From: Gemmatimonadota bacterium
Lineage (GTDB): Bacteria > Gemmatimonadota > Gemmatimonadetes > Longimicrobiales > Gaopeijiaceae
Reading direction: 5' to 3'
Assembly: GCA_040882465.1 (NCBI GenBank)
Contig: JBBEBG010000036.1
Span: 1-64,000 of the forward strand
Length of the DNA: 64,000 nucleotides
A program made the position numbers and the translations under genes. Shown in pieces: positions 4,163 to 40,627 of the stretch (its first letter is position 1; every line of letters starts with the position of its first letter). The notes beneath the pieces are model-generated. The model did no database searches. It was given only the letters and a program-made list of their open reading frames with translations, and was not told where the DNA came from.

Positions 4163-4777
4163 TCAGGGCATCATCCCGCCCCGTCCCTGTCCCATCATCC
4201 CCTGCATCATCTGCATCCCACCTGCCAGACCCTCGCGCTGCTCGGCGGTCAGGACATTCCGCGCCTCCACGGCAGCCCGCGCCATGGCCACGTGCGCCTC
4301 GACCATCCGGTCGGCACTCTCCCGGAGACCCTGCTCGTAGGCGGCAAGGTCGGGCGAATCCCCTTCGAGCGCTGCCGCGGCGTTCCCATGCGCCTCCATG
4401 GCCACCGCCATGAGCGGCTGGACGGATTCAGAATACTGTGCCTGAATGGCCTCGAGACGGCTCCTCTGCTCGGCTGTGAGATTCAGCGCATCTCCCATCC
4501 GAAGGATCATGGCCGGACCCGGGCCGCCGGTGGCCATCATCCCCATTCCCTGGCCCATCATCTGCATCATCTCCGGTCCCATCATCCCGCCACCCATCAT
4601 CCCCTGCGCCATCATCTGCATCATGCCACCCATTCCCATCCCACCGCCCATCATACCAGGCATGGCGTCCTGGCCTCCTCCCGGCATCGCGCCCCGCTGG
4701 GCCGACAGGCCCGACGCCATGAAGAGCAGGCCCACCGCGAGCGCACACGTTCGCTTCACTATCCTCTGAGCTGACAT
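4163..4777 (-). CDS. Met-rich periplasmic Spy/CpxP-like (LTxxQ) protein
   Basis: The protein has 204 residues. A signal peptide (residues 1-26, ending GLSAQ) is followed by a methionine/glycine-rich stretch at about 30-85 (PGMMGGGMGMGGMMQMMAQG) and a helical domain with two LTAEQR motifs, the hallmark of Spy/CpxP/ZraP-type periplasmic proteins. ATG 4777 has an AGGAGGG site 7-8 nt upstream. Met clusters bind Cu(I) in periplasmic copper proteins, so a copper-buffering or chaperone role is likely, in line with the metal genes elsewhere in the window. It ends in another Met-rich tail. The exact ligand is inferred. Confidence 0.75.
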   Translation of the reverse strand: MSAQRIVKRTCALAVGLLFMASGLSAQRGAMPGGGQDAMPGMMGGGMGMGGMMQMMAQGMMGGGMMGPEMMQMMGQGMGMMATGGPGPAMILRMGDALNLTAEQRSRLEAIQAQYSESVQPLMAVAMEAHGNAAAALEGDSPDLAAYEQGLRESADRMVEAHVAMARAAVEARNVLTAEQREGLAGGMQMMQGMMGQGRGGMMP

Positions 4778-5007
4778 CGTTCTCCCTCCTGTGAAGAATG
4801 CAGGATCCTCAAGATTCGACTACGAAACAACAAGGGCCGTGCCGGACCAACCAAAAGACCCCAGTTGCCGCAGGCAGAGGCCCGGTAGCTCTCCCCCCGC
4901 AGCTCCCGGCGCCCTGAAAAGGGACAATCCGGCTCACTTCGTCGGCTTAACGATCCGAATTTGTCCCGGCGACGAACCAGCGCTCGGCCGCACCAATACA
5001 GCTTCCT

Positions 5008-6282
5008 CTATCGCACATCTGCGCCATCGGGCCTCATCCGCCCCGGGGGAGTCAAGAGGAGCTGCAGGACCTGGGTGCCCCTCGCCCGAAAGGCGCCAGC
5101 GCTCGAAAGGAGGTAGTAGGTCCAGAGCCGCCGGAAGCGTTCGTCGTAACGCCCCTCCAGGATGGGCCACGCATCCTCGAATCTGCGGTGCCAGGCAAGG
5201 AGCGTACGGTCATAATCGGGACCGAAGCCATGAACGTCCTCGATGACAAGGAGCCTCTCCGTCGCCTTGGCGATCTGGCCAAGGGTGGGAAGCACGGCTC
5301 CGGGAAAAATGTATCGCGCGATCCACGGGTCGATCGCACGGGCCTGTGCGTTTCCGGTGATCGTGTGGAGGAGGGAAAGTCCGTCCGGCGCGAGACTCCG
5401 GCGAACTACCTCCATGTAAGTGCGGTAGTTGCGCGGCCCTACATGCTCGAACATCCCCACGGAAACGACCGCGTCGTACTGCCCGTTGACGCCGCGGTAG
5501 TCCTGGACGCGAATCTCGACAGGAAGCCCCCGGCAGGTTGCTCGGGCCACCTCCGCCTGTTCGGGCGACACCGTGACCCCGGTTGCTCGCACCCCATATC
5601 GCTCTGCCGCATACGCCACCAGCGAGCCCCACCCGCACCCGATGTCGAGGAGGGTCGCCCCTTCTTTTAGCCGCAGCTTGCGGCAGATGAGATCGAGCTT
5701 GGCCTCCTGGGCTTCATCCAGGGTCCGCGCTTCCTTCCAGTACCCGCAGGAGTACGTCATCCGCCGATCCAGCATCGCCCGGAAGAGGCCGGAGCCCTTC
5801 TCATAATGGCTTCTTGCGTTTCGTGATGCCCGCCGGCGGCTCTGGGGATTCCTCAGGCGCCTGATCCAGGAGGCGGCTGTCCAGGCACCTCGCCTCCGGG
5901 CGCGCCGAGCGAGATCGGCGGCCACGATCCGGTGGATGAAGGCATCGATCGCGTCCGTCTCCCACCATCCCTCGACGTAAGACTCTCCAAGCCCGAGGGA
6001 TCCATCTCGCAGAACCCGGCGGTAGAACCGGGCATCCGCGACCTGCGGATCGTGCGCGGCCGTTCCGTTGACCTGGACACCTGCCTCGAGGAGCCTTTTC
6101 TGAACGATTTGTCGGGCGATCCCTCCTGGTGCCGAACGACCCGAGACCGTTGCGCCACGCTCGGTGCTCCGCCCCGGCTCATGGGGCTCGACTTTCGACC
6201 CCGCTTCGGCCCCGCGAGGCTCCGAAAAGAAGCCCGATCGCGTGGGACCTCGAGCCCGGGGGCTCGGATCCTCCGACGGCAT
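5008..6282 (-). CDS. cfa: cyclopropane-fatty-acyl-phospholipid synthase
   Basis: A 424-residue SAM-dependent methyltransferase of the Cfa/CMAS family. SAM-binding motif I is LLDIGCGWGSLV; other family signatures are MTYSCGYW and VSVGMFEHVG. It adds a methylene bridge to unsaturated acyl chains of membrane phospholipids. The reading frame continues upstream to 6504, but that extension is low-complexity and overlaps the divergent transporter; ATG 6282 gives a length near the usual 380-420 and lies about 55 bp after a predicted -10 box. The upstream three-box operator (6338-6381) suggests control by the same regulator as the copper locus. Confidence 0.88.
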   Translation of the reverse strand: MPSEDPSPRARGPTRSGFFSEPRGAEAGSKVEPHEPGRSTERGATVSGRSAPGGIARQIVQKRLLEAGVQVNGTAAHDPQVADARFYRRVLRDGSLGLGESYVEGWWETDAIDAFIHRIVAADLARRARRRGAWTAASWIRRLRNPQSRRRASRNARSHYEKGSGLFRAMLDRRMTYSCGYWKEARTLDEAQEAKLDLICRKLRLKEGATLLDIGCGWGSLVAYAAERYGVRATGVTVSPEQAEVARATCRGLPVEIRVQDYRGVNGQYDAVVSVGMFEHVGPRNYRTYMEVVRRSLAPDGLSLLHTITGNAQARAIDPWIARYIFPGAVLPTLGQIAKATERLLVIEDVHGFGPDYDRTLLAWHRRFEDAWPILEGRYDERFRRLWTYYLLSSAGAFRARGTQVLQLLLTPPGRMRPDGADVR

Positions 6283-6337: not shown

Positions 6338-6381
6338 AATCTAGGGTGGGGTGGATGAATCCACGGTGAAGCGGGGATTAA
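6338..6381 (-). promoter_or_regulatory. three-box OmpR-type operator and -10 element upstream of cfa
   Basis: Read on the minus strand: TTAATC at 6381, TTCACC at 6370 and TTCATC at 6359, each exactly 11 bp apart. After the last heptamer come 9 bp and then TAGATT (6343-6338) as a -10 box. Geometry and consensus match the sites at 13242-13285 and 26069-26112. No clear -35 box is seen, as usual when an activator substitutes for it. Confidence 0.65.
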
Positions 6382-6505
6382 GGAACGTTCATGCACAGAT
6401 CTGTCGAGAGCTGAGCGATAGGGGCTCTGGCGAGTCTCTATCCCAGACTTCTCGCTGATCTTCCCCGTGGCCGGGTACCCGCGCTGGAAACAGGCCGATG
6501 CCACG

Positions 6506-10236: not shown

Positions 10237-10315
10237 TAAGTGAGCGCCATTCACGCTTCCTGCAGCGAGAGCTTGGGACGCCCTGAGGCTCTCCTGTGGC
10301 CCACCACCACGAGCC

Positions 10316-11287: not shown

Positions 11288-11290
11288 GAC

Positions 11291-12985: not shown

Positions 12986-13402
12986 ACCAACAGCGTCGGT
13001 GCCCTAAGCGGCGAAACGTGAGCGAGCCGCCCAGGCTGTTTCACGGTCCCTCCTCGCACTCGCGTCAGGCCAGCGCCCAAATTGCGACCCACGAGAACGG
13101 TGTTCGCGTGGATCCCGGGGATCAACTCGGCAAAAGGTAGTCTGGACGTGTCGCGCGAGGAACCGCCACGAGCCGGGCACGGACCCTTCCAATCGCGCGG
13201 GAGGGATCGACGGAGGTGTTTGTGAGGCGCGTTAACGAAGCTTCATGCCTTCTTCACGCTCTGTTCATGGTCCTCGGGGTACGTTTAGCATCGCGGAGAA
13301 GCGGATGCTCGGGTTCGGATGGCTAGCTCACCCCGGTGTCATGGACACCCCGAGGTCGAGGGAGAGGTCAGGTGTCCGTGAGACCCTGCTGCAGGAGCCA
13401 CG
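12986..13402. other. 417-bp intergenic region between pgm and the small-protein pair
   Basis: No convincing gene was found; short open frames have no family character or ribosome sites. The region holds a divergent promoter area, including the three-box operator at 13242-13285 reading toward 13403, and a small hairpin (GGTGTC-CATG-GACACC type) around 13335-13352 in the leader. Confidence 0.6.
13242..13285 (+). promoter_or_regulatory. three-box OmpR-type operator and -10 element upstream of 13403
   Basis: TTCATG (13242), TTCACG (13253) and TTCATG (13264) are spaced exactly 11 bp. The last heptamer is followed by 9 bp and TACGTT (13280-13285). Box consensus, period and the 9-bp gap are the same as at 6338-6381 and 26069-26112. 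Transcription would begin near 13292, leaving a leader of about 110 nt before ATG 13403. Confidence 0.7.
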
Positions 13403-13594
13403 ATGATGGATTGGCTGCGCGAGAATTTCTTCTGGCTGGTGGTGGGTGCGCTCTTCGTGTGGATGCATTTGAAGATGCATGGGGGTCACGGTCATGGGGG
13501 CCACACCCATCGCGAGGCCGGTGGGGGTCGGGGGGCGCCCGGAGACGACGCGGCGGCGGCGAACGGAAACGGAGGACACCATGCTGAACATTAA
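13403..13594 (+). CDS. small His-rich membrane protein, DUF2933-like
   Basis: A 63-residue protein with a CAGGAG ribosome site before a double ATG. One membrane helix (residues 8-22) is followed by MHLKMHGGHGHGGHTH and a His/Gly-rich tail ending HHAEH. DUF2933-type proteins are common near copper genes. Clustered His and Met next to the helix suggest metal binding on one side of the membrane. The stop overlaps the next gene's start by 14 nt, so the two are co-translated. Function is unproven. Confidence 0.65.
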   Translation: MMDWLRENFFWLVVGALFVWMHLKMHGGHGHGGHTHREAGGGRGAPGDDAAAANGNGGHHAEH

Positions 13595-13841
13595 GGTCGT
13601 TACCTGGTCTCTTTCGCTCTTCAGCACAGTAACGTACCTGGTGTGCGTCGTTTACGGCCTCATCGTGCCGGAGTCGCTACACATGACAACCTTGCTCGAG
13701 GGTGTCCTGCCGGGGTTCCGGTGGCTCACCCCGGGTGGATTCACGATCGGGCTTGTCGAGTCATTCCTTTACGGCGCGTATGTCGGCCTGGTCTTCGCGC
13801 CGATCTATAACACGCTATGGAGACGCTGGGCCCGGGGGTGA
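13581..13841 (+). CDS. small membrane protein, DUF5676-like
   Basis: An 86-residue protein from ATG 13581 with a GGAGG site 5-9 nt upstream. Two hydrophobic helices flank a loop with LTPGGFTIGLVESFLYGAYV, and it ends IYNTLWRRW, the LxPxGxxxG...YN pattern of DUF5676 proteins found in metal-resistance loci. It has similar architecture to the product of 20429-20734 and to the N-terminal part of 3530-4063. Role unknown; co-expression with the His-rich neighbour suggests a two-subunit membrane metal-handling unit (inference). Confidence 0.6.
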   Translation: MLNIKVVTWSLSLFSTVTYLVCVVYGLIVPESLHMTTLLEGVLPGFRWLTPGGFTIGLVESFLYGAYVGLVFAPIYNTLWRRWARG

Positions 13842-16098: not shown

Positions 16099-18255
16099 TC
16101 AGATCTTCGCACGCTTGAGAAGTTGGGCGTTGATGGCGACAACCACGGTGCTACCCGACATCAGCACGGCTCCAATCGCCGGCGTCAGCAAGATCCCCCA
16201 GGGCGCGAGAACGCCGGCGGCCAGCGGGATCGCGAAGATGTTGTAGCCGGCCGCCCACCACAGGTTCTGCACCATCTTTCTGTAGGTTGCGCGGGAGAGA
16301 GAGACGATCCTCGGAATGTCTCGCGGATCGGAGCGGACCAGGATGATGTGTCCCGCCTCGACCGCCACATCCGTCCCGGCGCCGATCGCGATTCCGATAT
16401 CCGCGGTGGCGAGGGCCGGCGCGTCGTTCACCCCGTCTCCCACCATGGCCACCTTCTTCCCCTTGGCCTGGAGTTCGCGGACCCTGGAGGCCTTGTCTTC
16501 CGGTAGCACTCGCGCGAAAACGGTGTCGATCCCAAGCTCCTCGGCTACCGCGTTCGCGACCGCTTCCGCGTCGCCGGTCAGCATGGCTACTTCGATTCCC
16601 CGGTCGTGGAGGGCGCGGATCGCGTCGCGGCTCTCCTCCCGGATGGCGTCGGCCACGGCGAAGACGGCTACCGCCTTGCGCTCTTCGAGAAGGTAGATGG
16701 CCGCCTGCCCACGCCCGGCCGCGCGCTCCGCGACCTCCGTCAGCGTCACGGGCACCTCGGCGCGCTCCGCCTCGAGGAGGGCCGGACCACCCACATGGTA
16801 CTCGACGCCGGAGACGGTCGCGGCGACCCCCTTTCCGGTGATCGCGCGGAACCCATCCGCGGGCAGAATTTCCACGCCACGGTCCGCGGCGGTCTTCACA
16901 ATCCCGCGCGCAATGGGATGCTCGGACTCGGATTCGATCGCCGCGGCGAGCCGGAGGGCTTCATCCTCGGTCCGTCCCTCTGCCACACCCATGTCCACCA
17001 CGCGAAACTCCCCGAGCGTCAGAGTGCCGGTCTTGTCGAAGATCACAGTGTCCAGCAGTCGAGCCTCCTCGAGGCCGCGACGATCCCGCACGAGAAGCCC
17101 TCCATGCACGCCCAAAGTCGTGGAGATGGCCACCACGAGGGGCACGGCCAGTCCGAGCGCGTGGGGGCAAGCAATCACCAGGACGGTCACGACCCTCGTG
17201 ACGGAGAAATCGATGGGGGCCCCGACGGCCTGCCACGCGATCAGCGTGACGAGTCCCGCCGCGATGGCCACGCCCGTCAGGAGTTGCGCGGCGCGGTCCG
17301 CGAGGTGCTGCACCCGCGACTTCGACTTTTGTGCGTCCGCCACGAGTCGCATGATCCCGCGGAGCTTCGTGTCCTCGCCAGTCCCGGTCACCTCGACGTG
17401 CAGAGACCCGGTTCCGTTGATCGTTCCGGCGATCACCTCCTGCCCCTCCTCCTTTCTCACGAGCTGAGACTCGCCAGTGATCATCGCCTCGTTCACCTCG
17501 CTCCGCCCCTTGCGGACGAGACCGTCGGTGGGGATGCTTTCCCCCGGACGGACCAGCACGAGATCACCCGTCTTGAGCTGATCGATCGTCACGTCTTCTT
17601 CCACCCCGTTCGCCAGCCGCCGCGCCGTGTCGGGAATGAGCTTCGCCAACTCCTGGAGGGCGCCGCTGGCCTCCGAGATCGAACGCATCTCGATCCAGTG
17701 GCCGAGGAGCATGACCGTGATGAGGGTCGCCGCTTCCCACCAGAGCGCCTCGGCGGCAATCAGGTTCAGCTCGACGACCCACGAGAAGACGAAGGCGACG
17801 GTGATGGCCAAGGAGATGAGCGTCATCATCCCGGGCAGGCGATTCTTCAGCTCCCCCCAGGCACTCCGGAGAAAGACGAGCCCCCCGTAGAGGAACACGA
17901 CGGTACCGAGCACCGCCGGAATCCGGGCCGAGCCCGGAAAGGACGGGGCCTGGTAGCCGAGAAGCTCCTGGATGTGCTCCGCCCAGACGACCACCGGTAT
18001 GGTCAACAGGAGCGAAAGCCAGAACTTCTGGCGGAACATCTCCGGGCTGTGACCCGCGTGCTTGTCGTGTCCCGCGCCCGCATGATCGCCGTGTGACGCG
18101 CCTGCGTGATCGCCGTGTTCCACCCCCGCATGGCCGTCGTGTGGCGCGCCCGCATGATCGCCGTCTTCCGGAACCGGGTGCCCGTCATGGGCCGGCTCAT
18201 GACGGTGCTCTTGATCGTGCCCCTCGTGATGATCCTGGTCCTTGTGCGTAGTCAT
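16099..18255 (-). CDS. copB: P1B-type copper-exporting ATPase with His-rich N-terminus (CopB type)
   Basis: A 718-residue protein. In order: a His/Gly/Asp repeat (residues 4-70), membrane helices, TGES actuator loop (260), ion-channel motif CPH (363-365), phosphorylation site DKTGTLT (D407), SEHPIARG, hinge GDGVNDAPAL and the last-helix motif MSGSTVVVAINA. CPH instead of CPC places it in the P1B-3 CopB group that exports copper (and sometimes silver) across the inner membrane. No CxxC metal-binding domain; the His repeat replaces it. ATG 18255 overlaps the preceding stop (ATGA), so translation is coupled. Confidence 0.93.
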   Translation of the reverse strand: MTTHKDQDHHEGHDQEHRHEPAHDGHPVPEDGDHAGAPHDGHAGVEHGDHAGASHGDHAGAGHDKHAGHSPEMFRQKFWLSLLLTIPVVVWAEHIQELLGYQAPSFPGSARIPAVLGTVVFLYGGLVFLRSAWGELKNRLPGMMTLISLAITVAFVFSWVVELNLIAAEALWWEAATLITVMLLGHWIEMRSISEASGALQELAKLIPDTARRLANGVEEDVTIDQLKTGDLVLVRPGESIPTDGLVRKGRSEVNEAMITGESQLVRKEEGQEVIAGTINGTGSLHVEVTGTGEDTKLRGIMRLVADAQKSKSRVQHLADRAAQLLTGVAIAAGLVTLIAWQAVGAPIDFSVTRVVTVLVIACPHALGLAVPLVVAISTTLGVHGGLLVRDRRGLEEARLLDTVIFDKTGTLTLGEFRVVDMGVAEGRTEDEALRLAAAIESESEHPIARGIVKTAADRGVEILPADGFRAITGKGVAATVSGVEYHVGGPALLEAERAEVPVTLTEVAERAAGRGQAAIYLLEERKAVAVFAVADAIREESRDAIRALHDRGIEVAMLTGDAEAVANAVAEELGIDTVFARVLPEDKASRVRELQAKGKKVAMVGDGVNDAPALATADIGIAIGAGTDVAVEAGHIILVRSDPRDIPRIVSLSRATYRKMVQNLWWAAGYNIFAIPLAAGVLAPWGILLTPAIGAVLMSGSTVVVAINAQLLKRAKI
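18049..18156 (-). repeat. 24-bp imperfect tandem repeat encoding His-rich octamers
   Basis: About 4.5 copies of a 24-bp unit inside copB encode HAGAxHGD-like octapeptides. It is the metal-binding N-terminus of the ATPase. Copy number is likely to vary between strains because tandem in-frame units recombine easily. Confidence 0.7.
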
Positions 18256-18983
18256 GTTGTTCCCGAAACGGGTTGATGCGTTCGGATGCTCTCCGGACGC
18301 CGCCACGTGAAGTGCTCATAGACGCCGGCCCAGTAGCTGCCGAAGCCGGCGGCGAAGAGGAGCTCCTCCAGCGGCATGAAGCCGAGCGTGACCCCCGAGA
18401 GCGCATCCAGATTCCAGACGGCCTCGATGTAACCCGACGGCGCCGTGAGCTCCAGCCCCGCGAGGAAAATCATGTAAAAGAGGACGAAGACGACTCCGCC
18501 CAAAGCGGTGGACCGGGCCAGGTCCGGCCGGCACCACGCGCTGAGGGTCCCTCCCGCCAGCATAGCGACGATTCCCGGATAGATCGGGTTCCAACCGAGC
18601 GGAAGGAGGAGCACGAAAATGACGAAGGGCGCGAACAACACGAGCCGGTGGAGCCTGTGCCGCGGGTGGTGTCTCTCTCCCGGCTCTACGGGCTGAGCCG
18701 CACGGCGGGTCAGGGCGTTCACGAGGACCGCCCCCACACCACCGATCCCGAAGCAGAAGATCAGGCTCTCGATGTCGAAACCGGTCCGCTGCGCCAGATC
18801 GAAGACGCTCGGCGGATTCCAGTAAGTCGGAACGAAGAGCGGCTCCGTCAGTCCGAACGGTGCCGTGAACAGGCTGGCCCAGACCATCGCGCGTCGGTGA
18901 GCGGGAAAGCGCCAGTAGAGGAGTCCCCATGGTAGGAGAAAGGCGCTCGACCAGGCGAACCACACGTACGGCGCGGGGATCAT
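18252..18983 (-). CDS. lycopene-cyclase-domain membrane protein
   Basis: A 243-residue protein with about seven hydrophobic helices in two similar halves. The motif MPLEELLFAAGFGSYWAGVYEH near the C-terminus, and GWNPIYPGI, are typical of the CrtYcd/CarR-type lycopene cyclase domain. In carotenoid pathways such domains form beta-rings, but no phytoene synthase or desaturase gene is present here. It ends in a 4-bp overlap with copB, which argues for joint expression with copper export. Function in this setting is open. Confidence 0.7.
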   Translation of the reverse strand: MIPAPYVWFAWSSAFLLPWGLLYWRFPAHRRAMVWASLFTAPFGLTEPLFVPTYWNPPSVFDLAQRTGFDIESLIFCFGIGGVGAVLVNALTRRAAQPVEPGERHHPRHRLHRLVLFAPFVIFVLLLPLGWNPIYPGIVAMLAGGTLSAWCRPDLARSTALGGVVFVLFYMIFLAGLELTAPSGYIEAVWNLDALSGVTLGFMPLEELLFAAGFGSYWAGVYEHFTWRRPESIRTHQPVSGTT

Positions 18984-19026
18984 GATGGACGATCTGCGCG
19001 TTCGACAGCCACGCGGTACGGTGAGG

Positions 19027-19710
19027 TCATGTGCCCCACCTCTCGGAAGAAGCTGCCACTCCCGGCGTGGCGGGAAAGCCCCCGAGCCCTCGGTATCTCA
19101 GATGGATGTAGATGAGCACGCTCAAAATCGCGTAGAAGAAGCACCAGATCGAGACCAGGGCGCTGGCATGCACCCAAGATGCTGCGGCAAAGGACCCAAA
19201 CCCCAGGATCCCGAAGAGATTGACAAACCTGTGACTCGAGAAGAAGCAGCTGACGCACGTTGCCGCGAGGTAGAGCACCATCACCGGTACCAAGTAGAAG
19301 TGGGGCGACACGTATACGATGTGCTTGCCAATGACCTGTGCGACCACCGGGCGGGCCACGAGCGAATAGAGCAGGTAGAGACCCACCACGATGCCGGCGG
19401 CCTGAAAGGCGAAAAGCGTCTTCCTTCGCCATGGTGTCGAGTCCAGGAACCCGATGGCGAAGGGGACGTAGATGGGCCACAGAACATGTGAGAAGACCGC
19501 GTAGACATCGGTCATCACATGCTGGAGTATCGGCGCGTCGTAGCGGAACGTCAGCCAAACGACTCCCTCGACGGTCTGCTGAATGCCGAAGAGAAGTGGA
19601 ATCGTCGCGAACGGTAGCTCGGATCGCCGCTCCACCTTCTTGATGGTCGCCGCGCCGATAGCCGCCAGAGACCCGCCGGCCGCAAAACTCGCGGTAGCCG
19701 AGAAGCACAT
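19027..19710 (-). CDS. DUF6629-like membrane protein
   Basis: A 227-residue protein starting MCFSATASF, the opening typical of DUF6629 proteins, followed by six or seven hydrophobic helices and a conserved HVLWPIYVPFAIGFL segment. GGAGGA lies about 12 nt before ATG 19710. No catalytic motif can be assigned. The gene is part of the contiguous minus-strand run leading to copB. Confidence 0.65.
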   Translation of the reverse strand: MCFSATASFAAGGSLAAIGAATIKKVERRSELPFATIPLLFGIQQTVEGVVWLTFRYDAPILQHVMTDVYAVFSHVLWPIYVPFAIGFLDSTPWRRKTLFAFQAAGIVVGLYLLYSLVARPVVAQVIGKHIVYVSPHFYLVPVMVLYLAATCVSCFFSSHRFVNLFGILGFGSFAAASWVHASALVSIWCFFYAILSVLIYIHLRYRGLGGFPATPGVAASSERWGT

Positions 19711-19782
19711 GGCGCGGGATTCCTCCTCAGTTCAGATGTGACCCGCCTTGCCTACGGCGAGCCTTCTACGCTTCGAGGGGAT

Positions 19783-20421
19783 CTAAACATCTCGGCGTAC
19801 CTCTTCTTCGTGGCCCGCTCCGCGGAGGGCCTTTTCCAACATGACCAGAAACCCGAACGCGGGATCCTTGTGATCCGAGTGGCGAACCACCTCCCAATGA
19901 TCGCGCAGGTAATCCTGCAGGAACCGGACGGCGTGACCCAGTGTGATCGTGTGGTATCCCCTGCCGCCGCCTGCGGTGGCGCCGAAAGCCACCATCCGGA
20001 TCTGGTGGCCGACGGGAAGGTCCGCGCGCCCTTCCCGGAGCAGGCTCTCCACGAGTGAAGCCGCGTTGTCAGGAGGGCAGCAACCAAACCGCACGAGCGC
20101 CGCACGGAGGACTCCCGGGTCGCTCGCGGCTTCGTTAAGCACCGCACGGCCCTCCTTCACCTCACCGACGATCATGTCGGCATGCTGCGCTGGCGCGCCG
20201 AGCGCGGGGTCCGGGGCGGCCTCGACCTGCTCGCGGGACCTGCCGCGGCCACTCCGCAGCATGAGCCGTCCGGCACGGGGGAACCGGAATGCCAGGATGT
20301 CCAGGTCGGTCGCGGTACGGTACTCGCCGCCGCCCATCACCTCCAGTACGGGGTATTCGGCCACGGTGAAGTACCCGTTCACGCGCAGATACGCCTGCAC
20401 CAGCGCGACGGCGTTATCCAC
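19783..20421 (-). CDS. hypothetical protein with PD-(D/E)xK-like motif
   Basis: A 212-residue soluble protein from GTG 20421. A segment TATDLDILAFRFP is followed some 40 residues later by DMIVGEVKEGRAVLN. The D-x-D ... E-x-K arrangement on adjacent strands resembles the PD-(D/E)xK nuclease core, but no named family is recognised. Not membrane-associated. It sits 8 bp after a small membrane-protein gene within the copper run. The nuclease reading is a hypothesis from motif spacing only. Confidence 0.5.
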   Translation of the reverse strand: MDNAVALVQAYLRVNGYFTVAEYPVLEVMGGGEYRTATDLDILAFRFPRAGRLMLRSGRGRSREQVEAAPDPALGAPAQHADMIVGEVKEGRAVLNEAASDPGVLRAALVRFGCCPPDNAASLVESLLREGRADLPVGHQIRMVAFGATAGGGRGYHTITLGHAVRFLQDYLRDHWEVVRHSDHKDPAFGFLVMLEKALRGAGHEEEVRRDV

Positions 20422-20428
20422 CGTCGGG

Positions 20429-20734
20429 TCAGCCTCCCCGGACGCGGGCTTCGGCGCCGCCCGGGCCGAGGAACCGGTTGTAGAACGCGGCGGTGGTGGT
20501 GAACACGAGGCCGGTGCCCAGGCTCCAGCAGATCAGCCCCACAAAGAAGCTGCCCCAGGTGACCGATGGTGCCAGCCCGGCCAGGTCCAGATGGACCATG
20601 TAACTGGCAGAGGCGACGGAAGCTTCCGGCGCGAGAGCCACCGCCAGGGCGCAAAGAGTTGTGAAGAGCGCGGCGATGGAGGCGCCCGCAAGGCCGAATG
20701 CGAACGTGTCGAGCGGGGTGGGAGCGGATCTCAT
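20429..20734 (-). CDS. small membrane protein, DUF5676-like
   Basis: A 101-residue protein with two hydrophobic helices; the loop LAPSVTWGSFFVGLICWSLG and the ending TTAAFYNRFLG follow the LxPxxxxxG...YN pattern also seen in the product of 13581-13841. Its start overlaps the stop of the next upstream gene by 4 bp. No catalytic residues visible. Confidence 0.55.
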   Translation of the reverse strand: MRSAPTPLDTFAFGLAGASIAALFTTLCALAVALAPEASVASASYMVHLDLAGLAPSVTWGSFFVGLICWSLGTGLVFTTTAAFYNRFLGPGGAEARVRGG

Positions 20735-21411
20735 GGCACAACTCCTCGAGAGGGTGAAGTGGGCGTGCCGGAAGCCCGGCCTCTGAGGCGCGGGAAGAAC
20801 TGCGGCGTGCGCGCGGCGTAGCGGTCATACTCGGCGCCGAACTGGGCGCGCACTTCCTGCTCCTCACGCCGCGCCAGCCGCAGGTACATCGCCGTCAGGG
20901 CGGGGAACATCAAGAGGGTGAGCAGCGTCGGCCACTGCAGCAGGAACCCGAACATGATTAGGATGAACCCGACGTACTGTGGGTGGCGCATGCTGGCGTA
21001 CGGCCCCGTGGTGGCGAGCGCGCCGCGACGCATGGCGTCGTGGAGCACGCTCCAGGCTGCGGCCAGGAGCCAGAATCCTCCTCCGATGAAAGCGAAGCTC
21101 AAGAGATGAAAGGGGCCGAAGTGAGGGTTGGCCTCCCAGCCAAGGAGCATTTCGAGGAGGTGCCCCGCATCGTGGGACATCCATTCCACGCCGGGGACCC
21201 GGGTCTGGAGCCAGCCCGAGAGGAGGAAGATCGTCAGGGGGAACCCGTACATCTCGGCGAAGAGCGCGACCAGGAAGGCGCTGAAGGCGCCAAAGGATCG
21301 CCAGTCGCGCCGGGTCCGCGGCCGGACGAAGCTGAACGCGAAGAGGATGAAGACGGCCGAGTTCACGAAGGCCAGGAACCAGAGGCCGTAGGCGGGCGCG
21401 TCAGTGGCCAC
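20731..21411 (-). CDS. isoprenylcysteine-methyltransferase-family membrane protein
   Basis: A 226-residue protein with about six helices. The C-terminal half has GPYASMRHPQYVGFILIM and a later RREEQEVRAQFGAEYDRYA, the SAM-contacting signature of the ICMT/phospholipid-methyltransferase family (also annotated NnrU-like or DUF1295-like). Bacterial members often lie beside metal-efflux genes. The substrate is unknown; a membrane lipid is most likely. It overlaps the preceding DUF2933-like gene by 11 bp. Confidence 0.75.
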   Translation of the reverse strand: MATDAPAYGLWFLAFVNSAVFILFAFSFVRPRTRRDWRSFGAFSAFLVALFAEMYGFPLTIFLLSGWLQTRVPGVEWMSHDAGHLLEMLLGWEANPHFGPFHLLSFAFIGGGFWLLAAAWSVLHDAMRRGALATTGPYASMRHPQYVGFILIMFGFLLQWPTLLTLLMFPALTAMYLRLARREEQEVRAQFGAEYDRYAARTPQFFPRLRGRASGTPTSPSRGVVP

Positions 21412-21595
21412 CGTGCCCTCCCCGGGCGTGGCCGCGGTGCATGAAGAGATGGGCGCCCACGCACGCAGCGAGCCACAGGAGCGGCCACGCGCCCAAGAGA
21501 TGGGCCCGATGCTCGAGGATCAGCAGGACTCCCGCGACACCGAGGAAGAAGAGGAGGGTCACTCGCGCGGCGGAGTGGGGACGGGCCTCGCTCAA
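21401..21595 (-). CDS. small His-rich membrane protein, DUF2933-like
   Basis: A 64-residue protein. It has hydrophobic segments (VTLLFFLGVAGVLLI; LLWLAACVGAHLFM) and a C-terminal tail HRGHARGGHGGH. Architecture matches the DUF2933-like product of 13403-13594. It starts in an ATGA overlap with the GAPDH stop. Confidence 0.6.
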   Translation of the reverse strand: MSEARPHSAARVTLLFFLGVAGVLLILEHRAHLLGAWPLLWLAACVGAHLFMHRGHARGGHGGH

Positions 21596-22620
21596 AGGAA
21601 CTCCTGCCGGATCCCCAGTGCCGCGTCGGTCCGCTCGATGGACCGAGTGGGGTCCCGCTCGGTCCCGCTGAGGGCGCGGATCGCGTCAATGGTCTCGGGT
21701 ACGACGATCGCCTGGTTATCCACCTGGTAAGCGTAGAAGAGCTCACGCCCTTGGACGGTCAGGATGTCCTCCCAGAGCGCGACCTCCCACATGTCCCCTC
21801 TCGGGCGCCCGATCTCTTTCATGACTTCTGCCGTGACGTTCAGGGCTTCGATCCCCTCGCCAGCCCTCACGAAAGCGATCCGCGGTACGGCGCGGAACGC
21901 GTCCAGGACTTCCTCCCGGGCGGCCGGGCGGGTCAGCTCCACGACCCAGTGGTGAAGGTGACCGACATTCTGTGGTGCCTTCGACGCCATCGTGATCACG
22001 TCCAGCTCCGGGATCACGGTTCGTGCGTCGGGACCCTGATGGCTAGGGATGTGCGGTTCCGGAACCATGGTGTTCATGATCCCATCCCGGTGGCTCTCCC
22101 ACGGATCGGTCGCCCTTCGGATGAGAACGCCTCGGGCTCGGAGAAGGAGATCGGCTTTCCGCAACGCCAGGAGGGTGCGCACGGTGGCCGTGGTGTTGCA
22201 CGAAACGACCCTGGTCATCCGGCGGTCGAGGGCGGACTCGTAGTTCGCGCTGGCCACGAAGCTATGGCCGGCCAGCTCGTGCTTCGCGCCTCCCTGGAAG
22301 ACGGCGCGAATCTCCGCTTCCTCATAGATGGAGCGGTTCCGGGCGTCCACCCCCTTCGGCGTGCAGTCCACGACGACATCGGCCTCCGCGAGGAGAGACC
22401 GCAGCTCCCCCTTCGGCTCGAGCCCTGCCACCTTCATCTCCCTCAGCGCATCGTCGGTCGCCCCGTAGAGAGGGATACCTCGGCGCGCCGCGATCCGCGC
22501 ACGCCAGTCGGTCGCGACATCCGCAACGCCGGCGAGGGTCATGTCGTCCTGGACCGTGACCGCATCGGCCACCCTTCGGCCGATGACCCCGTAGCCGTTC
22601 ACCGCCACTCGGAGCGTCAT
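21592..22620 (-). CDS. archaeal-type (type II) glyceraldehyde-3-phosphate dehydrogenase
   Basis: A 342-residue protein. NAD(P)-binding motif VAVNGYGVIGRRVADAV at the N-terminus, catalytic cysteine in VVSCNTTATVR, then PSHQGPDARTVIP, all characteristic of the archaeal GAPDH family rather than the ordinary bacterial GapA. It catalyses the phosphorylating oxidation of glyceraldehyde-3-phosphate. ATG 22620 has GGAGA 8 nt upstream; ATG 22638 has no ribosome site. It sits between copD and small membrane proteins inside the copper run, an unusual place for a glycolytic enzyme and possibly a copper-tolerant substitute. Confidence 0.9.
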   Translation of the reverse strand: MTLRVAVNGYGVIGRRVADAVTVQDDMTLAGVADVATDWRARIAARRGIPLYGATDDALREMKVAGLEPKGELRSLLAEADVVVDCTPKGVDARNRSIYEEAEIRAVFQGGAKHELAGHSFVASANYESALDRRMTRVVSCNTTATVRTLLALRKADLLLRARGVLIRRATDPWESHRDGIMNTMVPEPHIPSHQGPDARTVIPELDVITMASKAPQNVGHLHHWVVELTRPAAREEVLDAFRAVPRIAFVRAGEGIEALNVTAEVMKEIGRPRGDMWEVALWEDILTVQGRELFYAYQVDNQAIVVPETIDAIRALSGTERDPTRSIERTDAALGIRQEFL

Positions 22621-22652
22621 GCCGTTCTCCAGGTTCATGCCAGAATCAACGC

Positions 22653-23615
22653 TCAGCTCAGATCGCGCGGCGTCGGAGTGGCCACCAGCACCGCCGTGAC
22701 GAGGAGCACCGCGACTGCGACCAGCAGTTCGAGGGTCGCGGAGCGCCGGAGCCGCCCTGTTGCGGCGCCGTCCCCGAGAACCGGGCGAACCCGTAGAAAG
22801 TTGTAAGCTCCCACCGCGAAGAGCACCGAGAGGACCGCGACCTTGACGAGGAGTGTCCTCCCGTAGGTCGTCGCCCACAGCGCCTCGACGGACCCGATCT
22901 GCAGCCAGGCGGAGAAGATCCCCGTTCCGACCAGGACTCCGGCGAACGCCAGCGCGGTGGGCGAGAATGCCCGGACCAGCGCGACGACCGCCGGCGTGCG
23001 TCTTCCCTCCTCGAGCCGCAGCGCGGCCGGAATGCCCACGACCGCCAATGTCATCAGGCTCCCCAGCCATCCGCCCGCGGCGAGTACATGCACGCCGTCG
23101 GCGAGCACACTCAACGAAGTGGGCCCCGGTGCCGTCAGCGCATGACCCGACAGGGCGGGAGTGAACCCCAGCGCGAGAGTACCGGCCGCTGCGAGTGTCC
23201 ACCCGGCGGCGGTGTCCCCGCGCGCGGCGACGAAGCCCACGAGGGCCGTCCCCGCCGCCGTCACCTGAATCCACCACCCCCGCCCCCAGCGCGTGCCGAG
23301 GACGGCGCTCCACGACTCCGGCGCCATCGCGTCATCCGGCCCGAACAGGGAGTACGACTGCGCGTAGAGCCGCGCCACCGCGGCAACGAGCACCAGCGCG
23401 GCCATAGCAAGCCCCAAGGCCGACGCGGAGCGCGCGGCAGGCCCGGCGAGGGCGGCACCCGCGCCGCTCGAATTGTCCCGGGTCCGCGGAAGGACCAACA
23501 AACGGAACCAGACGGCCCCTGAGACTCCGAGCAGACCTACAAACAGCGCCCACCGCACGCCGACGTACGCAGGCGAGCCGGCGTGAAAGGTCCAGTCCAC
23601 CACCCACCCACTCAA
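22653..23615 (-). CDS. copD: CopD-family inner-membrane copper protein
   Basis: A 320-residue protein with eight hydrophobic helices. Conserved features are LADGVHVLAAGGWLGSLMTL in the middle (His near a Trp-Gly) and YGRTLLVKVAVLSVLFAVGAYN near the C-terminus, typical of CopD/PcoD (PF05425). CopD works with CopC to bring copper across the inner membrane or deliver it to cuproproteins. It starts in a 4-bp overlap with copC. Confidence 0.87.
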   Translation of the reverse strand: MSGWVVDWTFHAGSPAYVGVRWALFVGLLGVSGAVWFRLLVLPRTRDNSSGAGAALAGPAARSASALGLAMAALVLVAAVARLYAQSYSLFGPDDAMAPESWSAVLGTRWGRGWWIQVTAAGTALVGFVAARGDTAAGWTLAAAGTLALGFTPALSGHALTAPGPTSLSVLADGVHVLAAGGWLGSLMTLAVVGIPAALRLEEGRRTPAVVALVRAFSPTALAFAGVLVGTGIFSAWLQIGSVEALWATTYGRTLLVKVAVLSVLFAVGAYNFLRVRPVLGDGAATGRLRRSATLELLVAVAVLLVTAVLVATPTPRDLS

Positions 23616-24079
23616 GGGTCGTGATGATCCAGATGCGACAGGCCCTGCTCACTCGCCACGGTGAACATGATGCTATCGTTCACCGCGTGGCCGTCCGCAC
23701 CCGCCGTCCGCCAGCGTATGATGTAAGAGCCGGGACTGAGCGACTGCTCGATGCCGGCGAGCAGGACGTTGGCCGAGTCGCGTTCGACCGAGGGGGCCGA
23801 AAGCGGTACGGTCGCACCGTCCCCTCCCATGAGCTGGATTCGGGAGACCGCCAACTCGACCGGCTCAGCGAACACAAGCCGGAGCCTCTCCGGCGACAAG
23901 GCAATGTTCTCCCCCTGAGCTGGCTCAGAGCGGAGCAGCTGCTGGTGGAAAAGGGCGGTCAGCGGAAGCGCCAAGAGCGAGAGCGCGCCCAGCACCAGTA
24001 CACTACCGGCGACACGTCCGAGAGCGCCTCGGTGGTGCTTATTCCCGCGGTTCGCGGTCCCGGCTCGATCCTCTTTCAT
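23612..24079 (-). CDS. copC: CopC-family periplasmic copper-binding protein
   Basis: A 155-residue protein from ATG 24079 (site AGGGA upstream). A membrane/signal segment at residues 22-43 is followed by H45 in FHQQLLRSEPA, the position of the Cu(II)-binding N-terminal His of mature CopC, and a second conserved His in GADGHAVND near residue 132. The domain is an Ig-like beta sandwich in known members. Upstream in-frame codons back to 24250 lie inside the preceding gene and look non-coding. Translationally coupled to copD. Confidence 0.88.
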   Translation of the reverse strand: MKEDRAGTANRGNKHHRGALGRVAGSVLVLGALSLLALPLTALFHQQLLRSEPAQGENIALSPERLRLVFAEPVELAVSRIQLMGGDGATVPLSAPSVERDSANVLLAGIEQSLSPGSYIIRWRTAGADGHAVNDSIMFTVASEQGLSHLDHHDP

Positions 24080-24120
24080 CGCAGTCTTCCCTCTACCTTC
24101 TGAAGTTCGCAACCCTCTCA

Positions 24121-25182
24121 CTACGGGTTCACGGTCGAATGGTCGTGATCCATCACCGGCATCGCACCCGGCTGCGGCGGAGCGCCAAGGAGGCCCGTGG
24201 CCGGGCCTCCTTGTGCAGCGACGCCGTGCGCCTGGGCCATGGCAATCCACGCCTCGTCGGTCACTGCCATGGCTTCCGGATCCCTGAAGAGGTCGGCTTG
24301 CCGGTAGATCTCGTCGCGCTTTCCGCCCTCCGCCACGGCCTGGGACGCGAGGATGTCCGAGATCACGTCGTGCATCATGTGAAGATTGTCGAACACCGCG
24401 GCGAAGCGCGGATAACGCGCCGTAAAGGTCGGAGCGATCGCCGGCGTCATGGGCATCATGGACGGCAGATTGCCGGGAGGCGACTCGAGCATCTGCCAGA
24501 ATCGGGAGACGGTCGCCTGGACCGCCGCCTGTCGGGCAGCCGGGTCGTCGTAGAGCAGCAGGGGCTCGTAGATGCCGACCTGGAGCCAGTGGTACGCCCA
24601 GATCAGCCCATTAAAGCGCGGATACTCCTGGCGGAACGCCATCGAAAAGTACTGGCCGTCCATGATTTCCATTCCCTTCGGGACGGCTGAGAACGCGAGG
24701 TCGTTCGCCAGGTAGTGTTCGAGGAGCTCGTCCATCGCGCGATCCCGCTCGGCCTCGCTCAGGCTCCGGTCCGCCAGGATATCGTAGGTCTGCCTATGTA
24801 GAGTATGCGACCAGTCGAACATCTCCTTCGCACGAGTCGCCAGCCGTGCGTACCGGGGCATGAATGCAGCCTCCGGCATGGGGAGCCGGGGCGGGTTCGG
24901 AAGAATCTCGAGAGCGAGGCGATCGAAGATCTCAGACTCCAGAAGCTCCACGGGCGCCTCGGGTCGCGTCAGGAGCGTCTCGTATAGGATGCCGTGTCCG
25001 AAGTCGAACCCGTTGAAGAGCCGGTCCACGGCCGGAAACTCGGACCGGAACGTCCAGTTGTGGTCGGCCGGAAGATGCAGCGGATGGTACACACGTTCCT
25101 GCGCGAGGAGACCGGACAGCGGCGCCGTGCTCAGGGTGAGCGCCAACACTGCGGCATGGGGCCAAAGCGGGCGAACCTTCAT
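24121..25182 (-). CDS. unknown periplasmic His/Met-rich protein of the copper locus
   Basis: A 353-residue protein with a signal peptide (1-27, ending GLLAQ). It is mainly helical, with paired histidines and methionines placed for metal binding: FGHGILYE, FDWSHTLHRQTYDIL, LHMMHDVISDIL, and a C-terminal MPVMDHDHSTVNP. No family could be named. It ends just before copC and begins 1 bp after the outer-membrane protein gene, so the two are one unit. A periplasmic copper-binding or reductase-like role is a guess from context. Confidence 0.6.
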   Translation of the reverse strand: MKVRPLWPHAAVLALTLSTAPLSGLLAQERVYHPLHLPADHNWTFRSEFPAVDRLFNGFDFGHGILYETLLTRPEAPVELLESEIFDRLALEILPNPPRLPMPEAAFMPRYARLATRAKEMFDWSHTLHRQTYDILADRSLSEAERDRAMDELLEHYLANDLAFSAVPKGMEIMDGQYFSMAFRQEYPRFNGLIWAYHWLQVGIYEPLLLYDDPAARQAAVQATVSRFWQMLESPPGNLPSMMPMTPAIAPTFTARYPRFAAVFDNLHMMHDVISDILASQAVAEGGKRDEIYRQADLFRDPEAMAVTDEAWIAMAQAHGVAAQGGPATGLLGAPPQPGAMPVMDHDHSTVNP

Positions 25183-25183
25183 C

Positions 25184-25999
25184 TCAGGAGCCTCCGGGCA
25201 TGAGAGCGCGCACTCCGAACTCGTAAGTCAGGCCCAGCGTCGTGATCCAATCCCGTCGTCCATGTCCGGACCAGTCCCGTCCCAGTCCGCCGTCCATGGC
25301 GAGCGTGGGCGTCAGCTGCAGCCGAAATCCGGCGGCGGAATGCACTCGCTGCTCGTCGCTTCCATCCGAAGCCGTCCAGGTCTCGGCCAGAAGGATCGTG
25401 TGCTGGAACGGAAGGACATAGTCGAGCGCGATTCCGGCCCACCAGTCTTCTTCTCGGTCCTGGCCGACGATCGCGGCGCCGTTCAGGTGCATCCGCACCG
25501 GACCGACGAGGCTACGCGTGAGGATCCCGCCGACTTCCAGGGAGGCGGATTCCTCCGACTCGCCGGGCATCCGGCCCGTCAGACGTATGGCGGCCGCCGG
25601 AAGCCTCGGACCCTCGACCCAGAGATTCAGGAGCGCCGCAGCGGTCGCCTCAAGAAGCCCGGTGCTCGAGTGCGCGCCGTCCCGCACGCTCTCCATGGCG
25701 ACCCCCGCGGACACCTCGAGTCCCGAAAGAAGCCCATGCTTCAGCTCGATCGAAGGCGTGTAGCGGATCGCGCCGGATTCGTCCTGAGCGAGGGAGATGG
25801 GCGAGGCCTGGAGCTCGAAGGCCCAGCGCTTCGTGGTATAGGCATCCTCGACTCGAAGGGGCCGCCCGTGGTCGAGATTGTAAAAGTCTGTCTGGGCTAG
25901 AAGGGCCGTGGGAGCGACCAACGCCCCCATGGCGAACAGCCCCGCCCAGAGGATCGTTCGGCGAAGCTGAAGACCCAGCAACCGAAAAGCGCGTTGCAT
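25184..25999 (-). CDS. outer-membrane beta-barrel-like protein, first gene of the copper run
   Basis: A 271-residue protein. A long signal peptide (about 1-36) is followed by alternating amphipathic strands (VEDAYTTKRWAFELQASPIS; FRLQLTPTLAMDGGLG) and a C-terminus LGLTYEFGVRA that suits a small outer-membrane barrel. Similar DFYNLDHGRPLRVEDAY-type openings occur in 'transporter' porins next to metal genes (family knowledge, not checked). It directly follows the predicted operator/promoter at 26069-26112, with about 70 bp between -10 box and start codon. Confidence 0.6.
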   Translation of the reverse strand: MQRAFRLLGLQLRRTILWAGLFAMGALVAPTALLAQTDFYNLDHGRPLRVEDAYTTKRWAFELQASPISLAQDESGAIRYTPSIELKHGLLSGLEVSAGVAMESVRDGAHSSTGLLEATAAALLNLWVEGPRLPAAAIRLTGRMPGESEESASLEVGGILTRSLVGPVRMHLNGAAIVGQDREEDWWAGIALDYVLPFQHTILLAETWTASDGSDEQRVHSAAGFRLQLTPTLAMDGGLGRDWSGHGRRDWITTLGLTYEFGVRALMPGGS

Positions 26000-26068: not shown

Positions 26069-26112
26069 AAGTTACGGGGCCGGCGATGAAGAAAAGATGA
26101 AGGCCGCGTGAA
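26069..26112 (-). promoter_or_regulatory. three-box OmpR-type operator and -10 element of the copper run
   Basis: On the minus strand: TTCACG (26112), TTCATC (26101), TTCATC (26090), each 11 bp apart; the last heptamer is followed by 9 bp and TAACTT (26074-26069). It lies between the histidine-kinase stop and the first gene of the copper run. The nearest regulator is the OmpR-type protein at 27614-28294, so that protein is the prime candidate to bind here. Confidence 0.72.
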
Positions 26113-26144
26113 GAAGGCTTCATCCGCGACTGATGGGGATCGGA

Positions 26145-27617
26145 TCAGCTCGAGGCGGCTGTCGGGGCGGACCCACGAGCGGGAGCCATCGCCTCCGAAT
26201 GGGGAAAGAGCGTTGGAATTCGAACCTCGATTCGGGCTCCGCCGAGGCGCGAATCGTTGGATGCGGTCACGGATCCCCCATGCTGTTCGGCGATGACCTT
26301 CGCGATCGCGAGACCAAGCCCCGTCCCCTCGTTCCGCATCGTTTGCGAGCGGCTCGGATCCGCGCGCCAGAAGCGTTCAAAGATCGCCAGCTCGCTCCCC
26401 GCCGGGATCCCCGGGCCCGAATCCTCGACCGAAATCCTCGCCTCACCCTCCTCGGAAGTCACTGTGACGGTCACCCGCCCCCCAGTTCCAGCGAACCTCA
26501 CCGCGTTCTGCACGAGATTTCCGGCCATCTGGGTGACGAGGTCCGGATCGAAGACGCCGGGAACCGGATCGGGTGCGACGAGCTCAATTTGTACCGAATG
26601 CGCTTCGGAATCTCCGGAGGTCCGTGCGATCGCCTGTCCCACCAGTTTCGTCAGATCGGCGCGTTCCAGCCGCGGCTCCACGGCGCCGGAATCGGATCGT
26701 GCCAAAATGAGGAGCCCCTCCACGATGCGGCTCAGGCGCATGACTTCTTCGCAGGCACTGACCAGAACTTCCTTGTACTCCTCCGTACCGCGGTCTCGTC
26801 GGAGCGCGAGCTCCAGCTCGCCCCGCATCGCGGTCAGCGGTGAGCGAAGCTCGTGGCTCGCGTCGGCGGTAAAGCGGCGCTGAACCTCGAAGGCCGCCTG
26901 GATTCGATCTAGCATGTCGTTCAGCACATGCACCAGCCGCTCGTACTCGTGAGTATCGGCATGCGCACCGATTCGCCGGCGGAGAGACCCCGCGCCGACC
27001 GCCTCCGCCTCGTCGATGATCTCGGTCACCGGCCGGATCGCGCGAATTGCCAGCCAGCGACCACCCAAAACGCTTCCGATCCCCACGAGCACGATCAGAA
27101 GGAAACCGGACAGCGCCGCCCGGCCGAGCAGGGTATTCCTTCCTTCGAGGGGCGCGGCGACTTGGAGCACATGCTCCGCATGCATGTCTCCCAATCGCAC
27201 GAGGGGATAAAACACGGATCGCACCGGAATTCCCTCGAAGGAGGCGTCTTCCCATACGAGTTGTCCCGCCGCCGAGAGCCGAAGTGCTTCCGGCTCCAGG
27301 GGGAGGTCCCCGGTCATGTATTGGCTTCGCAGTAAGCTCTCCCCGTTCCCGCTCCATACCTGGGCGTAGCGCACGAGCTCCCGGACCGACGCCGCCTCCG
27401 CGGGAGTCAGGTCCCACTCGTGGAAGTGCATCTCTCCGGTTTCGCGGTCGGTGAGCGCGGCCGCCTGAATCGCGGCGACGTTCAGGATGTTCGCGCGGAG
27501 CTCACTGTCGAGCGTTCGCCGGAGGATGAAGTACGATCCGACGACACAGACCGTGATTCCGGCGGTCGTGATCAGGGCGAACCGGATCGCGAGGAGGTCG
27601 CGGAAGGACCGCTTCAT
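26145..27617 (-). CDS. sensor histidine kinase, CusS-like
   Basis: A 490-residue protein. Helix 1 at about 11-33, a periplasmic sensor (34-163) with scattered histidines (H64, H66, H146, H149), helix 2 at about 168-190, HAMP, then HisKA with H255 in ADASHELRSPLTAMR, and an ATPase domain (N box NLVQNAVRF, G1 DSGPGIP, G2 GTGLGLAIA). Domain order matches metal-sensing kinases such as CusS. It starts in an ATGA overlap with the response regulator. The inducer is inferred as copper from context. Confidence 0.9.
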   Translation of the reverse strand: MKRSFRDLLAIRFALITTAGITVCVVGSYFILRRTLDSELRANILNVAAIQAAALTDRETGEMHFHEWDLTPAEAASVRELVRYAQVWSGNGESLLRSQYMTGDLPLEPEALRLSAAGQLVWEDASFEGIPVRSVFYPLVRLGDMHAEHVLQVAAPLEGRNTLLGRAALSGFLLIVLVGIGSVLGGRWLAIRAIRPVTEIIDEAEAVGAGSLRRRIGAHADTHEYERLVHVLNDMLDRIQAAFEVQRRFTADASHELRSPLTAMRGELELALRRDRGTEEYKEVLVSACEEVMRLSRIVEGLLILARSDSGAVEPRLERADLTKLVGQAIARTSGDSEAHSVQIELVAPDPVPGVFDPDLVTQMAGNLVQNAVRFAGTGGRVTVTVTSEEGEARISVEDSGPGIPAGSELAIFERFWRADPSRSQTMRNEGTGLGLAIAKVIAEQHGGSVTASNDSRLGGARIEVRIPTLFPHSEAMAPARGSAPTAASS

Positions 27618-28294
27618 TCTTCCTCCTTGCGTTCCAGGATGTACCCGACGCCTCGAACCGTGTGGATGAGGGGATCGAGATTCGAGCCCCTCAGCTTTTT
27701 TCTGAGGTTGGCCACGTGAACGTCCACGACGTTGCTCATCGGGTCGAAGCTCAGATCCCAGACGTTCTCGAGAAGCTCGGTTCGACGCACGACCTGTCCC
27801 GGGCGGAGGAGAAAGTATTCGAGAAGGGCGAATTCCCGCGGCGTGAGGTCGAGGAGCGCTCCCCGCCGACGGGCTTCGTGGCGGATCCGGTCCAACTCGA
27901 CGTCATCGTAGGTCAGGCGATCGGTTCGCTGCGAACCGCCACGGCGCAGAAGGGCACGAATACGCGCCAGCGCCTCGCTCAGGCTGAACGGCTTCGTGAG
28001 GTAGTCATCCGCGCCCGCATCGAGGCCCGCGACGATGTCTTGCTTCGAGTCGCGAGCGGTGAGGAGAAGAATGGGCGCGGGACTCTCTTCGCGCCGCAGA
28101 TCTCGGGTGATTTCGAGGCCGGAGCGGCCCGGGAGCATGACGTCCAGCACGAGGAGGTCATACTTCTCGACGCGGGCCTTCATGGCACCTTCGATGCCGT
28201 CGGCCGCCACGTCCACCGTGTACCCCTCCTCCTGGAGCGCACGCTCCAGAAAGCGAGCGACCTTGCGGTCATCTTCGACGACCAGGATTCGCAT
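27614..28294 (-). CDS. OmpR/CusR-like response regulator
   Basis: A 226-residue protein from ATG 28294 with GGAG upstream. Receiver domain with acidic pair EDD (7-9), phosphoacceptor D51 (LVLDVMLPG), T and K switch residues (LLLTARD, LTKPFS), then a winged helix with VVDVHVANLRKKL as recognition helix and HTVRGVGYIL at the end. This family binds direct repeats about 11 bp apart; three such sites exist in this window. In-frame codons up to 28453 look non-coding. Confidence 0.92.
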   Translation of the reverse strand: MRILVVEDDRKVARFLERALQEEGYTVDVAADGIEGAMKARVEKYDLLVLDVMLPGRSGLEITRDLRREESPAPILLLTARDSKQDIVAGLDAGADDYLTKPFSLSEALARIRALLRRGGSQRTDRLTYDDVELDRIRHEARRRGALLDLTPREFALLEYFLLRPGQVVRRTELLENVWDLSFDPMSNVVDVHVANLRKKLRGSNLDPLIHTVRGVGYILERKEEE

Positions 28295-35932: not shown

Positions 35933-35941
35933 GTCCCCGGA

Positions 35942-36283: not shown

Positions 36284-36306
36284 GTTGCCTCCAAGGCTGT
36301 TCGTTC

Positions 36307-39429
<3,123 letters not shown>

Positions 39430-39437
39430 GACGCCTC

Positions 39438-40592: not shown

Positions 40593-40627
40593 TGCAGGAT
40601 TCACTTTGATTCCCTCCCAGAGTCGGC

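Follow-up and report, generated by a model that had tools for sequence, protein, structure and literature searches.

The locus considered here raises the question of which regulator controls a group of copper-resistance genes in a Gemmatimonadota bacterium, and through which DNA element. The window, a stretch of 64,000 nucleotides belonging to a 3.53-Mb draft genome in 41 contigs, contains three copies of a putative operator (sites A, B, and C) and encodes an OmpR/PhoB-type response regulator together with a sensor histidine kinase. The operator, which recurs before copper-resistance genes in related genomes, is very probably that of the co-occurring two-component regulator, as judged from its sequence and distribution. 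The initial annotation had described three promoters with a common box spacing and -10 element, and all three were found. Site A reads TTCACG-N5-TTCATC-N5-TTCATCG-N9-TAACTT (minus strand, 26112-26069), site B reads TTCATG-N5-TTCACG-N5-TTCATGG-N9-TACGTT (plus strand, 13242-13285), and site C reads TTAATC-N5-TTCACC-N5-TTCATCC-N9-TAGATT (minus strand, 6381-6338).

Searches of the whole genome of this organism with the pattern TTCAY-N6-TTCAY-N6-TTCAY returned two matches, sites A and B, and those with TTCAY-N6-TTCAY-N11-TANNNT returned three, sites A, B, and C, all on the contig of the window. The same patterns read backwards returned none. Within the window, five TTCAY pairs were present at period 11 versus an expectation of 0.3 per spacing. 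The proposal that identical spacing is hard to explain by chance was borne out by these searches, and a chance origin of the three sites is excluded.

Alignment of 30 sites from relatives revealed a fourth, inverted element, TGAAG, the reverse complement of CTTCA, which starts exactly 10 bp before the first box. The boxes and phase of the three-box operator initially proposed were correct, but this inverted box had been missed. Each site of the window has such a box at this same distance, TGAAG at site A (26122-26118), TTAAC at site B (13232-13236), and TGAAC at site C (6391-6387). The full operator, TGAAG-N4-CTTCAY-N6-TTCAY-N6-TTCAY-N11-TANNTT, thus consists of a palindrome and two direct half-sites followed by the -10 element. 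With the inverted box included, site A extends over 26069..26122 on the minus strand (boxes at 26112, 26101, and 26090; TAACTT at 26074-26069) and scores 53.6 bits with a weight matrix. Site B extends over 13232..13285 on the plus strand (boxes at 13242, 13253, and 13264; TACGTT at 13280-13285; 47.8 bits), and site C over 6338..6391 on the minus strand (TTAATC at 6381, TTCACC at 6370, and TTCATC at 6359; TAGATT at 6343-6338; 50.9 bits). Throughout the genome, the four-box pattern was matched without mismatch at site A and with one mismatch each at sites B and C; no place had two mismatches, and four scattered places had three.

The occurrence of the operator was analyzed in 58 relatives, in 295 genomes of the class, and in related loci fetched to a total of 880 kb. 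The 58 relatives contained 28 triple-box matches in 14 genomes versus 1 match for the backwards-read control, and the 295 genomes contained 47 exact four-box matches in 24 genomes versus none for the control. The single triple-box match of genome G052, which lacked both TGAA and the -10 element, was set aside as probably due to chance. In the 880 kb of related loci, 52 TTCAY triples were present at period 11 and none at periods 6 to 10 and 12 to 21; in 48 of these triples, TGAA starts exactly 10 bp before the first box. Scanning of these loci with the weight matrix identified 122 sites scoring at least 20 bits, and none with reversed or column-permuted matrices. The matrix was partly trained on sites containing the -10 element, yet 28 of the first 30 sites came from the boxes alone. 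All 122 sites were intergenic, although ~89% of the sequence is predicted to be coding according to gene calls by a simple codon-usage script, a result clearly in favor of the initial annotation, which would have been refuted by equally frequent matches inside genes. The distance from the inferred transcription start to the next start codon on the same strand had a median of 55 nucleotides.

These controls bear on the possibility that the sites are chance matches or belong to a repeat family unrelated to regulation. The bare TTCAY triple is weak evidence in this respect, since a control search for triples at period 12 was not silent, with 48 matches in 121 genomes of other lineages; this low background is explained by coding and repeat DNA, where periods divisible by three arise. 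We therefore relied on the reversed and permuted matrices and on the counts per period, which refute the chance explanation: the element is found at period 11 only and in intergenic regions only, is coupled to TGAA and to the -10 element, and is concentrated in genomes bearing the regulator. The sites are not copies of a repeat either, because the spacer sequences are not conserved. The probability that we assign to this explanation is negligible.

The boxes are located at a fixed distance from the -10 element: among 137 sites identified by the boxes only, 102 had NANNNT at offset 38, versus 0 to 12 for any other offset, and after removal of self-overlaps the motif was at this offset in 100 of 126 sites. 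A TTGACA-like hexamer was not found at the -35 position of these 126 sites. The lack of a -35 element and an operator at a fixed distance from the -10 element are the features of class II activator promoters, to which these promoters are predicted to belong. If transcription is taken to start ~12 nucleotides downstream of the first -10 base, the palindrome is centered near -53, with box 2 at about -39 to -35 and box 3 at about -28 to -24. We infer from these positions a geometry similar to that of the pho box, with a bound regulator in place of the -35 element. The pho box of PhoB consists of tandem boxes phased by 11 bp, which replace the -35 element about 10 bp before the -10 element; it differs from the operator described here in its sequence, in its signal, and in having no additional upstream inverted box. 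The location of box 3 between the -35 and -10 positions could also indicate repression, the regulator blocking RNA polymerase by covering the spacer until it is relieved by copper. We consider this very unlikely, since no -35 hexamer occupies the expected position, as is usual for promoters that depend on an activator, the spacing up to the -10 element is constant across many sites, and the regulators of similar operators, AgrR (PMC7380067) and CopR of Corynebacterium glutamicum (PMC3140484), are activators.

The proposed binder is the response regulator encoded at 27614..28294 on the minus strand. It belongs to the OmpR/PhoB family according to Pfam, with receiver (Response_reg) and Trans_reg_C domains scoring 102.5 and 93.5 bits, above the cut-offs. 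Comparison with NCBIfam models gave 232 bits for cztR_silR_copR (TIGR01387), the best model of the library, versus a cut-off of 279.2, and 191.9 bits for the E. coli CusR model (NF007346), versus a cut-off of 420. The sensor kinase gene (26145..27617, minus strand) overlaps the regulator gene, and its best model, cztS_silS_copS (TIGR01386), gave 233 bits, below the cut-off of 292.55. Because these scores fall below the model cut-offs, the predicted proteins are relatives, not members, of the CzcR/SilR/CopR and CzcS/SilS/CopS families. Co-occurrence across relatives, proximity, and the content of the regulon all support the choice of this regulator as the binder in the initial annotation; it resembles the heavy-metal CzcR/SilR/CopR subfamily, with a score below the cut-off of that model and well below that of the E. 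coli CusR model. A segment of the recognition helix, SNVVDVHV, is near-invariant in 34 regulator orthologs, as is the operator. The periplasmic part of the kinase contains conserved MxFHEW and HxxH motifs, with M63, H146, and H149 invariant and H66 conserved in ~90% of 31 orthologs. The metal ligands of CusS include His and Met (PMC10100754), and the conserved Met and His positions of the kinase are compatible with a CusS-like sensing of Cu(I) or Ag(I). The predicted fold of the sensor domain was generic (PAS/PDC-like), its matches in the PDB were weak, and a relationship to CusS was not identified by this approach.

The named relatives identified by the kinase are Gemmatimonadota, and the distribution of the sites followed that of the kinase. 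Of the 58 relatives, 14 had the triple box, 16 had a full-length kinase ortholog, and 13 had both (Fisher p = 2e-9, shared ancestry being ignored). Among the 295 genomes, the four-box site was present in 24, the kinase (E <= 1e-90) in 34, and both in 18 (Fisher p = 8e-15, computed in the same way). One or more matrix sites were present in every kinase-bearing genome for which loci were fetched, also in three (G004, G046, and G048) devoid of the exact motif. The regulator gene itself was directly behind a site in about ten genomes, suggesting that autoregulation is common. Of 80 loci fetched by kinase similarity, two encode a close ortholog, and it is these that carry strong sites; they appear to come from two genomes sampled before. 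Most loci with distant kinases had none.

OmpR-family regulators other than this one recognize sites that resemble TTCAY direct repeats at 11 bp; the CreB site is TTCAC-N6-TTCAC, and PhoP is likewise among the members of the family with similar sites. The sites might therefore be owned by a PhoB- or CreB-like regulator, the CusRS-like pair being located nearby by chance. About two dozen kinase-like sequences are present in the genome of this organism, and the operator precedes non-copper stress genes in two genomes (G066 and G153). Against this, the sites follow the kinase/regulator pair of the window across the 58 and 295 genomes and often lie no more than 180 bp from the start of the regulator gene, or otherwise before copper genes. 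A phosphate or carbon regulator would place sites before the genes of its own regulon in most relatives, and most genomes lacking the pair have none. We consider ownership by another regulator very improbable and regard it as highly likely that the two-component system encoded at 26145-28294 uses the sites as activator-type operators.

Several observations nevertheless weigh against this assignment. Sites B and C deviate by one base each, in the inverted box and the first box, respectively. The two Fisher tests were not corrected for shared ancestry. Six genomes (G227, G268, G066, G072, G153, and G238) had sites without a strict kinase ortholog in the scan, which must reflect gaps in drafts or a paralogous regulator, and in two of these, G066 and G153, the sites precede stress-type genes. 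Site C precedes a cfa gene, which is unusual as a copper target and had no parallel among the relatives examined.

In the two genomes with stress-type genes, in family f6, the four-box operator is located near genes for CBS-domain, HSP20-like, universal-stress-like, and similar proteins, at 5700-12100 of locus L229 (G066) and near 8486 of locus L231 (G153). Locus L231 also encodes a regulator 63% identical to that of the window. A paralogous system may use the four-box operator for a non-copper stress regulon.

Site A is followed by a co-directional run of genes on the minus strand (16099..25999), whose continuity as an operon is predicted from strand and spacing. The position of site A before this copper run, noted in the initial annotation, was supported, and copper genes are also located behind the sites of relatives. 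The run starts with an exported protein of no known family (25184-25999) and a second gene (24121-25182), followed by genes for CopC (23612-24079), CopD (22653-23603), and a type II glyceraldehyde-3-phosphate dehydrogenase (21592-22638), further small genes, and a copper P-type ATPase (16099-18306; TIGR01511, 596 bits versus a cut-off of 397). The archaeal-type (type II) dehydrogenase gene is also found directly behind an operator site in relative G005 (L161:9977-11047), which suggests that this enzyme is a copper-tolerant replacement in glycolysis. The genes behind site B (13403..13841, plus strand) encode a His-rich DUF2933-like protein (13403-13594) and a DUF5676 protein with two transmembrane segments (13581-13841); DUF2933-like and DUF5676-like genes are located behind a site in a relative too. 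Behind site C (4163..6282, minus strand) are genes for a cyclopropane fatty acyl phospholipid synthase (cfa, 5008-6282) and an LTXXQ/CpxP-Spy-like exported protein (4163-4777), presumably reached by read-through; LTXXQ genes are directly behind sites in relatives. The cfa gene links the modification of membrane lipids to the putative copper regulon.

In relatives, the genes most commonly found behind the sites encode CusC-type outer membrane proteins; others encode multicopper oxidases (CopA-type) with CopB, CopC/CopD, copper ATPases, the regulator itself, and PCYCGC, LTXXQ, SnoaL-like, DUF2933-like, and YHS-like proteins, several of these names resting on inspection of the sequences rather than on a family search. 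This gene content points to a predicted copper-responsive regulon. Scanning with the matrix did not identify any site for the RND efflux genes of the window (36307-42064). These were dropped as regulon members, since they have no site, encode a CzcB/NccB-type adaptor, and are accompanied by a Cd/Zn-type ATPase. At 33953-42064, the P-type ATPase of this type adjoins a CusA/CzcA-type RND exporter with its adaptor; together they probably form a divalent-metal system of their own, which lacks the operator.

In the mechanism that we propose, the kinase would sense excess periplasmic copper (or silver) and phosphorylate the response regulator (27614-28294), which would then occupy the palindrome and the tandem boxes. 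The last two boxes would lie on either side of the -35 position and substitute for it, and the fixed 11-bp gap to the TANNTT-type -10 element would let the bound regulator recruit RNA polymerase by class II activation, as at a pho box. The three units controlled in this organism would be the copper run from 25999, the small DUF2933/DUF5676 unit, and the cfa/LTXXQ unit. In this scheme we infer binding, the dependence on phosphorylation, copper as the signal, and activation rather than repression.

Comparison with known systems identified two related operators. CopR of C. glutamicum binds the direct repeat TGAAGATTT-nn-TGAAGATTT and activates copper genes, including those for a multicopper oxidase and a P-type ATPase (PMC3140484). 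Common to both systems are a copper two-component regulator, the TGAAG half-site (CTTCA on the other strand), the 11-bp period of the direct repeat, and a very small regulon (PMC3140484), although the operators described here do not need the extended 9-mer TGAAGATTT. The C. glutamicum site is a plain direct repeat located far from one of the controlled promoters, whereas the sites reported here combine an inverted pair with two direct boxes at a fixed distance from the -10 element and abut the promoters. AgrR of Cupriavidus metallidurans, a class II activator, recognizes an inverted repeat, with 4 bp between its halves, together with direct repeats that are in phase, at promoters with a good -10 and a poor -35 element (PMC7380067). 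The operator of the window has the same composite plan, with TGAAG-N4-CTTCA followed by TTCAY at +11 and +22. It differs from that of AgrR by the half-site (CTTCAY versus ATTACA/TGTAAT), by the center of the palindrome (about -53 versus near -43.5), and by its two regular direct repeats, which are imperfect and present only at some operators in the case of AgrR. The putative operator is a CopR half-site on an AgrR-like plan, more regular than either. The operators of E. coli CusR and Pseudomonas CopR-CusR also belong to two-component systems for copper whose regulons are very restricted, and they are built around a palindrome (TGACAAnnTTGTCA in E. coli); the half-site letters differ, and the consensus described has no direct-repeat arm (PMC11195947). 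For the exact TTCAT direct and inverted architecture, AgrR was the sole useful precedent found in the literature, and a limited literature search did not retrieve any characterized copper operator in Gemmatimonadota. The present analysis provides a precise operator, a -10 spacing, and a candidate regulator for copper defense in this phylum, making the predicted regulon readable from the sequence of draft genomes. It also ties poorly known families to copper (DUF2933, DUF5676, PCYCGC, LTXXQ, and Big_5-containing exported proteins) and offers a clean candidate case of an OmpR-family regulator combining inverted and tandem half-sites.

Eight operators in relatives were divergent, with direct-repeat arms on both sides of a single palindrome (L216:8860, L220:3610, L162:11809, L217:13562, L150:4356, L158:12353, L147:319, and L160:15187). 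Several separate the gene for the regulator or an oxidase from a gene of another kind, such as a SnoaL-like one, and several have copper or regulator genes on both sides, transcribed divergently. These two-armed operators suggest that the arm gives the direction. As a tentative and rather doubtful extension, a symmetric dimer may nucleate on the palindrome and further copies add head-to-tail along the direct boxes, the arm setting the direction of transcription. A two-armed palindrome would then drive two divergent promoters, and one winged-helix protein would use inverted and tandem contacts within one complex at essentially every target.

Two further elements were observed in the fetched loci. 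An operator-like site of 31.5 bits (L093:8974), in a record of a Rhodospirillaceae metagenome-assembled genome, lies ~100 bp before the gene of an OmpR-type regulator and faces away from it, towards a small exported protein; this type of operator may thus reach beyond Gemmatimonadota. Five Gemmatimonadota loci with distant kinases (L092, L101, L102, L106, and L108) have in common a conserved element of another type, approximately TTCAT-N6-CTTAATCTT and then TATT, which is probably the operator of another two-component system.
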